Shown piece after piece: positions 42,038-47,080 of a stretch of DNA of 64,000 nt. Below the pieces are notes generated by a model. That model was not told the origin of the DNA and did no database searches. It saw nothing but the letters and a program-made list of their open reading frames with translations. Origin of the DNA: Halostella litorea (lineage in GTDB: Archaea; Halobacteriota; Halobacteria; Halobacteriales; Natronoarchaeaceae); NCBI RefSeq assembly GCF_004785955.1, contig NZ_SJER01000005.1:1-64000 (forward strand). The letters are read 5' to 3'. The translations under genes were made by a program, and so were the position numbers. Position 1 is the first letter of the stretch. Each line of letters starts with the position of its first letter.

Positions 42038-42178
42038 CTCGCTGCAGCGACCTCTATTCCGCAACGGCCGCATCGTTCCCCGCAGCGTCACCCGTCGGTT
42101 CCGCGAACAGCCCCGGAAACCGACAGGCGGCCCTACGGCTAAGTACGTTCGTGCGGTTCTCTCCGACGGGTGGGGAGA

Positions 42179-43405
42179 ATGAGCGACGAACGCAACACCG
42201 GCGACGAGTGGAACATCACCCGCGACCCGGACCGGATCCGGAAGTGGGGCGAACAGCGCGACATGCGACCGTACCGGCGGCGCGACGGGGGGAGCGACGA
42301 CGTCGGCTTCTACCGGCACGACGACGCCCCGGAGGACCACGAGCAGGTGGAGTGGGAGCGCCTCGGGGAGACGATGACCGACGACGAACTCGTGTTCATC
42401 TACCGCGACGAGGGGGAGGAGTACGAACTCGTGCGCCGCGCGGACGCGGCGGAGCGGGCCGCCATCGAGAGCGAGGCCGTCGAGGAGGCCCTGATGGAGG
42501 GGGAGTCGGTGACGACGGAGATCACCGAGACGACCGTCGTCGAGACGGAAGTCGTCGAGACCGACGTGCTGGAAAGCGAGGTGGTCGACAGCGAACTCAT
42601 CGCCAGCGACGTCCTGGAGAGCGAGGTGGTCGACCGCGAGGTGGTCGACACCACGTTCGTCGACGACGAGACGGTCGAGGTCGAGGTCATCGAGACCCGC
42701 GACGAGACCCGCGAGCGGTTCGAGCGGAAGGTCGTCGAGAGCGAGGTGGTCGACAGCGAACTGATGCAGGGCGAGGCCGTGGAGACGGACGAGATAGAGA
42801 CGTCGGTCGACGTGGAGAACGTCCAGCGGAACCTGCTCAAGTCGGACATCGTCGCGAGCGGGCGCGTCGGCGAGGAGGTCGTCGACACGGACGCGATAGA
42901 GAGCCGCCTGCTGGAGGGCGACGTCATCGAGACGACGTTCGTCGAGCGGTCGACGGTCGAGGAGGAGGTCGCCGACGAGCGCCGCCTCACGTACTCGCTC
43001 GTCGACGACGAGCACCTTGGGACCGAGACCATCTACAGCGAGGAGCTCGAACACGACGTCGTCTCGGAGTCCGCGGTCCCCGAGCACGCACGGCGGCGGC
43101 CCGGCGACCCGGCGGAGGCGACGGCGCCCGCCGACGCGGTCCCCGGCGACCGCGCCGCGGGCGGGCCGACCGGGGTCGAACTCACGGAGGACGACGTCGG
43201 CAAGCGCGTGGTCGACGACCGCGGCACCGAGGTCGGCGTCGTGGCGGGCGTCGAGCCCGGAGCCGTGCTGGTCAACCCGCAGGCCGGCATCGCCGACCGG
43301 ATCAAGACGCGGCTCGGCTGGGGCGGCGAGGAAGACGCCTACGCGGTCGACGAGGACCAGGTGGCGCGGGTCGACGACGACGAGGTCGTCCTGCGGAGCG
43401 TTTAG
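42179..43405 (+). CDS. Acidic pentad-repeat protein with C-terminal PRC-barrel-like domain
   Basis: 408 residues from ATG 42179. Residues ~1-90: conserved-looking head (WNITRDPDRIRKWGEQRDM, DDELVFIYRDEGEEYELVRR). Residues 95-171: sixteen consecutive five-residue units of the form hydrophobic-hydrophobic-Glu/Asp-x-Glu/Asp/Thr (VVETE, VLESE, VVDSE, LIASD...) without a break; a second block at 185-206; a third of about seventeen units at 219-300 in shifted register. Residues 338-405: a PRC-barrel-like domain (VGKRVVDDRGTEVGVVAGVE). Such strict spacing suggests a solenoid or fibre rather than a coiled coil; it differs from the classical A(D/N)Lxx pentapeptide because two hydrophobics are adjacent. 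Strongly acidic. Its stop overlaps purM's. No function known. Confidence 0.82.
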   Translation: MSDERNTGDEWNITRDPDRIRKWGEQRDMRPYRRRDGGSDDVGFYRHDDAPEDHEQVEWERLGETMTDDELVFIYRDEGEEYELVRRADAAERAAIESEAVEEALMEGESVTTEITETTVVETEVVETDVLESEVVDSELIASDVLESEVVDREVVDTTFVDDETVEVEVIETRDETRERFERKVVESEVVDSELMQGEAVETDEIETSVDVENVQRNLLKSDIVASGRVGEEVVDTDAIESRLLEGDVIETTFVERSTVEEEVADERRLTYSLVDDEHLGTETIYSEELEHDVVSESAVPEHARRRPGDPAEATAPADAVPGDRAAGGPTGVELTEDDVGKRVVDDRGTEVGVVAGVEPGAVLVNPQAGIADRIKTRLGWGGEEDAYAVDEDQVARVDDDEVVLRSV

Positions 43406-44373: not shown

Positions 44374-44508
44374 ACGCGAGACCCCGCCCGGCGCGAGCAA
44401 AAGGCCACCGGTCTGGCGCGGATCCGGGAGGAATTCTAGAACCAGTTCGAACGGAGTCGGGTCGGCCTTTGAAAAATCGGTTTTAGTGGGTCCGCCGTCG
44501 CTCCGAAC

Positions 44509-44991
44509 GTGACACACAGAGAGTTCGGCACCACGGCGCTGGTCGCACTGGTCGCAGTCGCACTCGTCGCGGTCCCCGCCGCGGGGCTCGTCGCCGCGGA
44601 CGGCTCCCCGTCGGTCGGAGCCCCCGTGACGACGACCGACGGCGGCGGCATGGACGGCGACGGGATGAACGGGACGACCGGCATGGACGACGGAATGAAC
44701 GACGGCGGCATGGACGAGACGACGGCGATGGGGGACGGCATGAACGACAGCGACGGGATGAACGATAGCGACGGCATGGACGACGGGATGAACGGGACGA
44801 CCGAGATGGACGACGGGATGAACGGGACGACCGAGATGAGCGACGGCATGGGCGACGACGATATGGACGGCGAGTCCGAAGGGGAGGACATGGACGAAAA
44901 CGACAGCGATGGCGGTTCGCTCGACGGGTTCGGCGTCGTCGCGGTGGTCCTCGCACTCGCCGCCGCGCTCGGGTACGCGAGATTCCGATGA
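44509..44991 (+). CDS. Secreted methionine-rich protein with a CTERM-like anchor
   Basis: 160 residues from GTG 44509 (GGTTTTAGT box 27 nt upstream). A signal peptide (~8-30) is followed by a low-complexity zone in which residues 48-128 contain 16 methionines, one every four to six residues, mostly as DGM(N/D) and TTEM in an Asp/Gly/Asn background. Residues 138-160 (LDGFGVVAVVLALAAALGYARFR landmark, not complete quote) look like a PGF-CTERM sorting signal with Pro replaced by Asp. The next gene, a molybdoenzyme, overlaps by ATGA. Met may bind copper or act as an oxidant sink; both are inferences. Confidence 0.82.
   Translation: MTHREFGTTALVALVAVALVAVPAAGLVAADGSPSVGAPVTTTDGGGMDGDGMNGTTGMDDGMNDGGMDETTAMGDGMNDSDGMNDSDGMDDGMNGTTEMDDGMNGTTEMSDGMGDDDMDGESEGEDMDENDSDGGSLDGFGVVAVVLALAAALGYARFR
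44776..44835 (+). repeat. Exact 30-bp tandem duplication in the Met-rich gene
   Basis: The 30 bp at 44776-44805 recur exactly at 44806-44835, encoding the unit MDDGMNGTTE twice. It is the only exact repeat in the degenerate array of the gene and suggests length change by slippage or unequal crossing-over. Confidence 0.9.
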
Positions 44992-46472
44992 GCGCCGCGC
45001 GCATCCGGGCGGGGATCCGCGGGAACGCGCCCGAACTCGGGCTGGCAGCGGCGGGCGGGCTGGCGGCCGTCGCCGCGTCGTTCGCCGCCGCGGGCGACCC
45101 GACGGCGTTCGTCGGCGCGGCCGTCGAGGCGGTGATTCGGGACACCGCCCCCGAACCGGTCGTGGAGTTCGTGCGGAGCGACCTCCGGGACCTGGCCGCG
45201 CCGACGCTGCTGGCGACGGCGGTCGTCGCCGCCACGGCGCTGTTCGCCCTGTTCGGGCTGGCCGGCGTCGCGGTCGACCGCCGGACGGACAGCCTCGGTG
45301 CCGGCGTCGCCGTCGCCGCGGTGCTTGGCGGCGGCGCGTCGACGCTGCTCGGGGTGGGGCCGCTGCCAGCGCTGGCCGCCGCGGTGCCGACCGCGCTCGT
45401 TCCGGTCACCGCCCGCGCGACGGGCGCGCCGACGACCGTCTCGAAGCGGCGGCGCACCCTGCTCGGCTCGGTCGGCGGCCTGCTGGGCCTGGCGGGGGCA
45501 AGCACGGTGCTCGGCACCCAGCGCGGGGGAAGCATCGACCCCGAACCGCTGGACGAGGCGGCGGAGACGGAGACGCTGCTCTCGACGGCCGACGAGCGGT
45601 CGCTCGACCTCGCCGGCACCGGCGGGCTGGTGAGCGACTCGTTCTACGAGGTCGACTACAGCAACTTCGACCCGACCGTCCGGAAGGACGATTGGTCGCT
45701 GACGGTCACCGGCGAAGTCGAGGAGGAGGTGACCGTCGACTTCGAGGGGCTGCGCGACATGTCGACCGAACACCGCTTCGTCACGCTCCGCTGCGTCAGC
45801 GACCCGCTGAACGGGAACAAGATGGACAACGCGCTCTGGACCGGGACGCCGCTCGCCGACCTCGTCGAGGAGGCGGGGCCGGGGGGCGGCTGCGAGTGCG
45901 TCCGCCTGCGCGCCGCCGACGACTACTATCAGGTCTTCCCGCTGGCGGCCCTCCGCAACGGCTTCCTCGCGTACGGCATGAACGGCACGGAACTGCCGAA
46001 GGGACACGGCCACCCCGTCCGCGTGCTGATCCCCGGCCACTGGGGCGAGATCAACGTCAAGTGGATCACGGAGATCGAGGTGCTGGACCGGGACGCCGAG
46101 GGCTACTGGGAGGAGCGCGGCTGGCACGGCACCGGCCCCGTCGAGACGGTCGCGAAGATCGGGTCGGTCGACGAGCGCGACGACGGGACCGTCCGGGTCG
46201 GCGGCCACGCGTACGCCGGCACCCGCGGCGTCTCGGCCGTGGAGGTGTCGACCGACGGCGGCGACACGTGGAGCGAGGCGACGCTGTCGCCGACGCTCCC
46301 GGGCGACGACGTGTGGCGGATGTGGGCCCACGAGTTCGCGGCCGACGGCACGCACGAGGTGGTCGTCCGGGCCGTCGAGAGCGACGGCACCGTCCAGCCC
46401 CGCGAGGAGACCGACGCCTACCCCAGCGGCGCGACCGGCTGGGTGTCCCGCACCGTCGAGGCGGAGCGGTGA
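44988..46472 (+). CDS. Membrane-anchored sulfite-oxidase-family molybdopterin oxidoreductase
   Basis: 494 residues. About four TMs at 15-35, 72-97, 104-142 and 157-175 with a twin-Arg-like RRR before the last; then the Mo-cofactor domain (~215-385) with the Mo-ligand cysteine C269 in FVTLRCVSDP and the closing motif GHPVRVLIPGHWGEINVKW (~341-359); and the Mo-co dimerisation domain (~386-480, VEVSTDGGDTWSEA). The enzyme face is probably extracytoplasmic. Sulfite oxidase, methionine sulfoxide reductase (MsrP) and nitrate reductase share the first domain; the dimerisation domain favours the sulfite oxidase branch. Translationally coupled to the Met-rich protein. Confidence 0.88.
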   Translation: MSAARIRAGIRGNAPELGLAAAGGLAAVAASFAAAGDPTAFVGAAVEAVIRDTAPEPVVEFVRSDLRDLAAPTLLATAVVAATALFALFGLAGVAVDRRTDSLGAGVAVAAVLGGGASTLLGVGPLPALAAAVPTALVPVTARATGAPTTVSKRRRTLLGSVGGLLGLAGASTVLGTQRGGSIDPEPLDEAAETETLLSTADERSLDLAGTGGLVSDSFYEVDYSNFDPTVRKDDWSLTVTGEVEEEVTVDFEGLRDMSTEHRFVTLRCVSDPLNGNKMDNALWTGTPLADLVEEAGPGGGCECVRLRAADDYYQVFPLAALRNGFLAYGMNGTELPKGHGHPVRVLIPGHWGEINVKWITEIEVLDRDAEGYWEERGWHGTGPVETVAKIGSVDERDDGTVRVGGHAYAGTRGVSAVEVSTDGGDTWSEATLSPTLPGDDVWRMWAHEFAADGTHEVVVRAVESDGTVQPREETDAYPSGATGWVSRTVEAER

Positions 46473-46508
46473 AGCTTTGTGGCGTCGGCGTGAGGGTGGG
46501 GGACGGAG

Positions 46509-46781
46509 ATGGAACAGGCGCTCTGGTATCTCTTCGCCGGCACGCGCGGCGGCGAGAACCGGGCGCGGATCGTCCGCGTCCTCTCGGAGCGCCCACGGAA
46601 CGCGAACCAGATCGCCGAGGCGATGGACGTGGACTACAACACCGTCCGGCACCACCTTGAGATGCTCACCGAACACGACGTCGTCGAGACGGGCGGCAAC
46701 GACTACGGGAAGCTGTACTTCCTGACCGACCGGTTCGAACACCACCGCGAGGAGTTCGAGGAGATACTGGAGCACGTCTGA
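46509..46781 (+). CDS. Winged-helix regulator (ArsR/DUF7342-like)
   Basis: 90 residues: ARIVRVLSERPRNANQIAEAMDVDYNTVRHHLEMLTEHDVVETGGNDYGKLYFLTDR is a compact winged helix. No Cys, so metal sensing by thiols is unlikely. It lies 36 bp after the molybdoenzyme and 2 bp before the membrane protein gene; this HTH/membrane pairing is common in haloarchaea. It probably controls this operon. Confidence 0.87.
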   Translation: MEQALWYLFAGTRGGENRARIVRVLSERPRNANQIAEAMDVDYNTVRHHLEMLTEHDVVETGGNDYGKLYFLTDRFEHHREEFEEILEHV

Positions 46782-46783
46782 CC

Positions 46784-47080
46784 ATGGCGATGGGCACCGA
46801 GATCATGGCCGCGAGCGTACTCGCCGGCGTCAACATCCTCCTGCTCGGCGGCCTGACGGCCGTCTGGGTCCGGAACTACCGCACCTTCCGCACGCCGCTG
46901 ATACTGGGGCTTATCGCCTTCGGGAGCGTCATGCTGCTGGAGAACGCCGCCGCCATCTACTTCTTCTTCAGCACGAAGATGCTGTACTCCGGCGACCCCG
47001 GCGTCCAGACCGCCGTCGTCACGCTGCGAGCGCTCCAGTTCGTCGCGCTGGCCTTCCTGGCGTGGGTGACGGCGAAGTGA
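46784..47080 (+). CDS. Three-TM small membrane protein paired with the winged helix (DUF7521-like)
   Basis: 98 residues with three TMs: ~8-30 (ASVLAGVNILLLGGLTAVWV), ~38-65 and ~75-97. NYRTFRTPLILGLIAFG between them is the typical motif of the partner of winged-helix proteins (family DUF7521 by memory). Start ATG 46784 is 2 bp after the regulator stop. It may sense or tether the regulator; not shown. Confidence 0.8.
   Translation: MAMGTEIMAASVLAGVNILLLGGLTAVWVRNYRTFRTPLILGLIAFGSVMLLENAAAIYFFFSTKMLYSGDPGVQTAVVTLRALQFVALAFLAWVTAK

Follow-up and report, generated by a model that had tools for sequence, protein, structure and literature searches.

A methionine-rich surface protein encoded beside a distinct sulfite-oxidase-superfamily molybdoenzyme in haloarchaea: a candidate rechargeable methionine shield

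Exported methionine-rich (Met-rich) proteins encoded with molybdoenzymes of the sulfite oxidase superfamily have been described in bacteria, in papers that are cited here from excerpts. In Azospira, the exported Met-rich repeat protein MrpX is encoded alongside YedY1, a molybdoenzyme of this superfamily (PMC4623255), and in Brucella the MXKDX peptide BcrX is co-transcribed with MsrPQ homologues in an operon that contributes to resistance to hypochlorous acid (HOCl) (PMC8315932). For Escherichia coli MsrP the electron donor is MsrQ, a haem protein (PMC6211008). For the Sco3746 proteins (Tooke 2017), reporters fused to the transmembrane (TM) part are exported in E. coli in a manner dependent on twin-arginine translocation (Tat), two haems b are predicted from TM histidines and homologues are listed in Euryarchaeota, including Haloprofundus marisrubri; the excerpt mentions no Met-rich partner (PMC5449189). 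The present study concerns a four-gene array of Halostella litorea, located in a stretch of 64,000 nucleotides (GCF_004785955.1, contig NZ_SJER01000005.1, forward strand, positions 1–64,000), referred to below as the window. At 44509–47080 on the + strand, base-level reading gives a Met-rich gene, a molybdoenzyme gene, a winged-helix gene and a gene for a small membrane protein, in this order. The end of the Met-rich gene and the start of the enzyme gene share 4 bp (ATGA), the winged-helix gene follows after 36 bp and the membrane-protein gene after a further 2 bp. This layout and these spacings, the 16 Met in residues 48–128 of the first protein and C269 of the enzyme had all been given in an earlier reading of the same DNA (the initial annotation) and were reproduced at base level. 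The first two genes and their key sites are as follows.

44509–44991, + strand: Met-rich secreted protein of 160 residues (open reading frame with a GTG start; anchor features judged by eye)
44650–44892, + strand: Met-rich segment of this protein, residues 48–128, with 16 Met (from sequence composition)
44988–46472, + strand: membrane-anchored molybdoenzyme of 494 residues (PF00174 and PF03404, alignment and structural model)
45450–45455, + strand: twin arginine R155–R156 of the enzyme (invariant in 26 of 26 aligned sequences)
45792–45794, + strand: C269 of the enzyme, a molybdenum ligand as judged from homology (the same in all 26 aligned enzymes; aligns with E. coli MsrP)

The adjacency of the Met-rich gene and the enzyme gene is more than chance. 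Counting paralogues, 83 of 98 genomes had at least one sequence that matched the enzyme, and the best 80 of 179 haloarchaeal enzyme loci (880,456 bp) were taken as the main set, with 61 loci (326,632 bp) as a second set; the two sets are not independent because they share assemblies (for example, L031 and G004). All six frames were scanned for acidic 60-residue segments with at most six residues of the types LIVFWYC and at least four, five or six Met, a strict rule that was adopted only after a looser one (at most 15 LIVFAW per 60 residues) had matched control coding sequence. The initial annotation had proposed looking for this adjacency in other haloarchaeal genomes, and it does recur: at six or more Met, 18 of the 80 main-set loci carry such a segment directly upstream of the enzyme on the same strand, with none elsewhere in the 880,456 bp, and none was found by the strict rule at 40 control loci around other PF00174-type genes. 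The main-set count rises to 21 loci at five or more Met and 22 at four or more, again with none elsewhere, and in the second set 18, 18 and 19 of the 61 loci are positive at six, five and four Met, with none elsewhere in the 326,632 bp. Under the looser rule the main set gives 18, 21 and 23 loci, with zero, two and five matches elsewhere, and the controls give six matches at six or more Met, 13 at five or more and, with still looser limits, 35 at four or more; four of the six lie in the Moco (molybdenum cofactor) reading frames of the paralogues themselves and two in a small protein with the motif EMQIAQMVEQ. In an initial version of the scan, all 15 matches with at least seven Met were upstream. 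Within the 64 kb of the window, only the Met-rich reading frame passes the strict criterion. Of 26 listed loci, the window included, 15 have −4 to +5 bp between the Met-rich stop codon and the beginning of the enzyme gene, and Met-rich partners also adjoin enzymes that are only 41–46% identical to that of the window (L125, L126, L134 and L139). A probe pattern, ATGGAYGAYRRYATG, performed poorly and was discarded, as it misses the window copy; a second Met/Asp pattern recovers the window cluster and enzyme-adjacent clusters in four genomes (G002, G032, G043 and G079).

The partners differ widely outside their Met-rich stretch. Thirty-three were extracted from 34 loci tried (L036 is missing), a sample from which the Met-rich-positive loci L084, L011, L016 and L019 are among those left out; start codons were picked by us, with surplus N-terminal residues in L031, L067, L008, L025, L125, L013 and the first L139 partner. 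By motif rules of our own, the 'CTERM-like' one drawn up after the tails had been seen, 14 of the 33 have a lipobox and 19 have a hydrophobic C-terminal tail. Of these 33, 28 were compared with NCBIfam at E ≤ 0.01: seven of the 28 match PGF-CTERM, seven a spondin domain and four MXKDX (TIGR02953), for which L033 scores above the cut-off of 41 (47.7 bits) and L010 below it (39.0 bits); DUF7482 exceeds the Pfam cut-off in three of nine partners scanned. The carriers comprise C-terminally anchored proteins, lipoproteins, and lipoproteins with a spondin or DUF7482 domain, and because they are so unlike one another the common part of the partners is the Met-rich stretch. The partner in Haloferax mucosum (L052) is similar to the spondin type, and that in Halostella pelagica (L031) is of the window type. 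On a quick tree of the enzyme with 95 rows, presence of the Met-rich stretch requires 22 changes or more, and it has therefore been gained or lost many times; at L142 and L143 the gene is cleanly absent between the promoter-like element described below and the enzyme, as in exact gain or loss of a cassette. In a Halobaculum plasmid copy, the Met-rich and small-membrane-protein genes are annotated by NCBI as 'hypothetical protein'. As a separate observation, three of four actinobacterial plasmid loci viewed (L155, L156 and L158) place enzyme relatives near secreted fasciclin-domain proteins, in one case with an IS5 transposase gene in between; the fasciclin protein is possibly a bacterial counterpart of the haloarchaeal Met-rich partner.

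All 16 internal Met of the window protein fall within residues 48–128, a segment rich in D, G, T, N and E and devoid of H, C and K; the whole protein has no Cys, and its sole His is residue 3. The N-terminus is hydrophobic and the C-terminus consists of DGFG, a hydrophobic tail and RFR, which by eye resembles archaeosortase-type anchors. No match was found for this protein in NCBIfam at E 0.01, TIGR02953 (MXKDX) and TIGR04126 (PGF-CTERM) included. As far as the excerpts go, the arrangement is like MrpX–YedY1 and BcrXQP in that an exported Met-rich repeat protein stands beside a sulfite-oxidase-superfamily enzyme, and some haloarchaeal partners match TIGR02953; unlike MrpX and BcrX, the window copy has acidic D/G/N repeats without Lys and is predicted to be anchored to an archaeal surface.

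The enzyme contains a Moco domain (PF00174, E 1.4e-35) and a dimerisation domain (PF03404, E 2.1e-8), preceded by N-terminal helices with the twin arginine ahead of the last of them. Its Cys residues are 269, 302 and 304, and R155–R156, C269, H340, R345, K358, W359 and also Asp223 are invariant across the 26 aligned enzymes. In the AlphaFold2 model (mean predicted local distance difference test score, pLDDT, 77; predicted template modelling score 0.59; pLDDT below 50 at 147–187, 223–226, 269–271 and 371–382), N-terminal helices, of low confidence at 147–187, are accompanied by a sulfite-oxidase fold. The description of the protein in the initial annotation as a membrane-anchored member of the sulfite oxidase family with C269 as the Mo ligand is upheld. 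Like Sco3746, as excerpted, it has TM helices, a twin arginine before the last one and a C-terminal Moco domain; unlike Sco3746, its TM part has no haem-ligating His, a feature that is variable in other haloarchaeal members.

Its nearest solved relatives are SorA, SoxC, SorT and the plant and animal sulfite oxidases, which head the fold search made with the model, with YedY behind them. Like SorA, SorT and SoxC, it combines Moco and dimerisation domains, whereas its scores are below their NCBIfam cut-offs (SorA 103.8 against 600, SoxC 88.9 against 420 and SorT 86.7 against 570 bits). The enzyme is not YedY/MsrP, as its score for MsrP (NF003767) is 61.7 bits against a cut-off of 207 and the dimerisation domain is present; MsrP is not known to have that domain, and E. 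coli MsrP, judged by its sequence, has no TM domain. E. coli MsrP and the window enzyme are alike as extracytoplasmic Moco enzymes with a Cys ligand, and both show FYE and RCV close to the active site. The family pattern is FY-x-V-D plus RCV; the window enzyme reads FYE...DP and RCV, and E. coli MsrP FYEFG and RCV, whereas FFVR and ECAGNGR occur in the aligned Rhizobium sulfite oxidase. Asp223 aligns with the Arg of FFVR, which we take to be the substrate-binding residue of sulfite oxidases and dehydrogenases, in the single Rhizobium sulfite oxidase compared. The counterpart of SorA Y236, presumably the catalytic Tyr, would be W379 by motif spacing, in a gapped part of the alignment. In the enzyme tree, which includes one of the seven paralogues tried, the haloarchaeal enzymes form a clade with actinobacterial and Thermus relatives, split from the Rhizobium enzyme and the paralogue with support of 100/99; of the comparison with MsrP/YedY and sulfite oxidase foreseen in the initial annotation, the separation from the Rhizobium enzyme is clear, but the branch that leads to E. 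coli MsrP has a length of 7.34 and its position is unusable. Because of the missed NCBIfam cut-offs, the Sco3746-like layout and the FY-x-V-D and RCV motifs in place of FFVR and ECAGNGR, the enzyme belongs, judged by sequence, to a separate clade within the sulfite oxidase superfamily and is not MsrP or a canonical sulfite oxidase. A divergent relative was also seen on a Natronorubrum bangense plasmid (L160), between the cytochrome c maturation genes ccmE and ccsA.

The remaining features of the array are as follows.

44464–44486, + strand: promoter-like element GGCCTTTGAAAAATCGGTTTTAG (comparable elements in relatives; putative promoter)
46509–46781, + strand: winged-helix (ArsR/HTH_20-like) protein of 90 residues without Cys (PF12840, E 8.2e-12)
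46784–47080, + strand: small membrane protein of 98 residues with three TM helices by eye (conserved W28, N31-Y32-R33, F35 and E53)

For the last of these, called a three-TM protein in the initial annotation, the reading frame and spacing were borne out, while the count of helices rests on the eye, with no predictor; no family exceeded its cut-off. A homologue of the winged helix and/or of the small membrane protein is present at 48 of the 80 main-set loci, 3' of the enzyme at 46 and upstream on the opposite strand at L034 and L041. Across 69 and 70 sequences, respectively (near-copies included), both proteins are conserved, the membrane protein with W28, N31-Y32-R33, F35 and E53 at 90% or more; neither has a conserved Cys, which makes a thiol switch unlikely. 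The element GGCCTTTGAAAAATCGGTTTTAG contains a TATA-like GTTTTA whose centre lies about 26 nt upstream of the Met-rich GTG start, and in relatives a similar element lies about 46 nt 5' of the first gene, be it the Met-rich gene or the enzyme, by start codons of our choosing. A matrix built from eight sites was tested on 43 regulator-linked main-set loci outside the training set: at scores of 18 or more it matched upstream of the enzyme at 12 of the 43, against three matches anywhere else, and at a score of 12 at 20 of the 43 against 20 elsewhere, so that separation is good at high score only. The element is probably the promoter of the operon. In the excerpted Azospira and Brucella systems, the place of the winged helix and membrane protein is taken by a sigma/anti-sigma pair. 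The array is flanked by purM on one side and by a small lipoprotein-like reading frame, with no family match over cut-off, on the other. Elsewhere in the window, 42170–43405 (+ strand) encodes an acidic protein of 411 residues with, by eye, about ten near-repeats of E-x-x-V-V-x-S/T-E-V-V-D and a PRC-barrel-like C-terminal stretch.

By analogy with Azospira MrpX and Brucella BcrXQP, the Met-rich protein may be a sacrificial oxidant sink that is re-reduced by the molybdoenzyme, a reading to which we give a probability of about 0.5. A conserved promoter would drive one operon forming a cell-surface oxidant-handling module, and the Met-rich protein would be exported and anchored on the outside, where its clustered, exposed Met could take up HOCl, peroxide or other reactive halogen species. 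The enzyme would be inserted by Sec and its catalytic domain moved out by Tat via the last TM helix; it might then reduce the resulting methionine sulfoxides with electrons from a membrane or surface donor other than MsrQ, making the sink reusable, while the winged helix and its membrane neighbour would adjust expression.

Several observations weigh against this reading. Even among genomes of one genus the Met-rich gene is dispensable: it is present in three of five genomes (G000, G002 and G004) and missing at this locus in G001 and G003, which keep purM, the promoter element, the enzyme (89% identical in G003) and the regulators, so that the enzyme does not need a Met-rich partner in cis. The pairing proposed in the initial annotation gains from the MXKDX matches of some partners but is not obligatory. 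In a count over 78 main-set loci (at least four Met, at most 20 LIVFAW; truncated L061 and L101 excluded), the gene is missing at 25 of 47 regulator-linked and 27 of 31 unlinked enzymes under this looser rule. Other genomes also have Met/Asp repeats at sites apart from the enzyme (G072:C1:2751420–2751506, G002:C28, G096:C1:3595742 and others), and of five TIGR02953 matches in four of the 98 genomes, none over cut-off, three abut the enzyme (one in G029 and two in G050) and two lie away from it (G061 and G075). A profile of the enzyme scores 117 bits against SorA and 47 against YedY among solved structures, nearer to the sulfite dehydrogenases. The window enzyme lacks His in its TM part, and the genome yielded no MsrQ-type (ferric-reductase, PF01794) gene at E ≤ 0.001, a search in which the E. 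coli control matched; no electron route is therefore visible. Unlike the Azospira and Brucella enzymes, as excerpted, the window enzyme is not MsrP and has its own TM anchor and dimerisation domain; with no MsrQ-like protein found in the genome, the haloarchaeal operon is not a plain copy of the MrpX/BcrX system. A SelR/MsrB gene is also present in the genome.

The kinship with sulfite dehydrogenases bears equally on an alternative that we consider unlikely, although it deserves to be taken seriously, in which the substrate of the enzyme is sulfite, a different S-oxide or some small molecule, the Met stretch serves only as a hydrophilic spacer or anchor and the two genes are paired through common export or regulation. 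The many enzymes without a Met-rich neighbour and the folded spondin or DUF7482 domains of some partners would fit it, and an inert spacer is retained as an explanation because, in three of the four loci viewed, the actinobacterial relatives have Met-poor fasciclin proteins nearby. However, an inert spacer need not be rich in Met, whereas all 18 strict matches in 880 kb occupy one position in unlike carriers, and the Arg of the Rhizobium sulfite oxidase is replaced by Asp223, which is invariant in all 26 enzymes.

A role in copper handling, a leading competitor of the oxidant sink, appears rather improbable: the Met-rich protein would be a surface binder or store of Cu(I)/Ag(I), its Met kept reduced or repaired by the molybdoenzyme under copper stress. 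Clusters of Met alone are capable of binding Cu(I)/Ag(I), but many bacterial copper Met-motifs also contain His or Cys, and the window segment contains neither. The winged helix is ArsR-like, which would fit this reading, but it has no conserved Cys, and the flanking genes, purM and the unassigned lipoprotein-like frame, speak against such a role. Copper and MsrP are linked in E. coli, where an excerpt gives the copper chaperone CusF as a target of MsrP repair and CusSR as the system that controls both msrPQ and cusCFBA (PMC9302797); the excerpt of a Haloferax silver-stress paper names no gene that could be matched to this locus (PMC10694973). The oxidant-sink and copper readings are not mutually exclusive. 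It is very improbable that the Met-rich protein senses redox state or metals through oxidation of its Met, which the enzyme would reset, and passes the signal via the membrane protein to the winged helix: Met-rich partners accompany 22 of 47 regulator-linked enzymes against four of 31 unlinked ones (one of the four, L070, a doubtful 67-residue frame; Fisher p 0.003) and both regulators are conserved without a conserved Cys, but the test ignores shared ancestry and G001 and G003 keep the regulator pair without the Met-rich gene.

In conclusion, the oxidant-sink reading, taken with the family placement, suggests a rechargeable surface Met shield in haloarchaea, in which unlike anchored proteins have repeatedly been given acidic Met repeats beside a haem-less, dual Sec/Tat extracytoplasmic methionine sulfoxide reductase that is distinct from MsrPQ and has its own regulator pair; as a whole this picture is tentative, its chances somewhat short of even. 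Among the matches listed in the open-licence literature, titles and abstract openings contained no description of a Met-rich/molybdoenzyme pairing in haloarchaea. The operon names a concrete enzyme–substrate pair in culturable haloarchaea. If the reading is correct, Met-rich sinks would operate in a second domain of life, served there by a different enzyme, and the operon would bear on how haloarchaea withstand intense sunlight, high halide and reactive halogen species.

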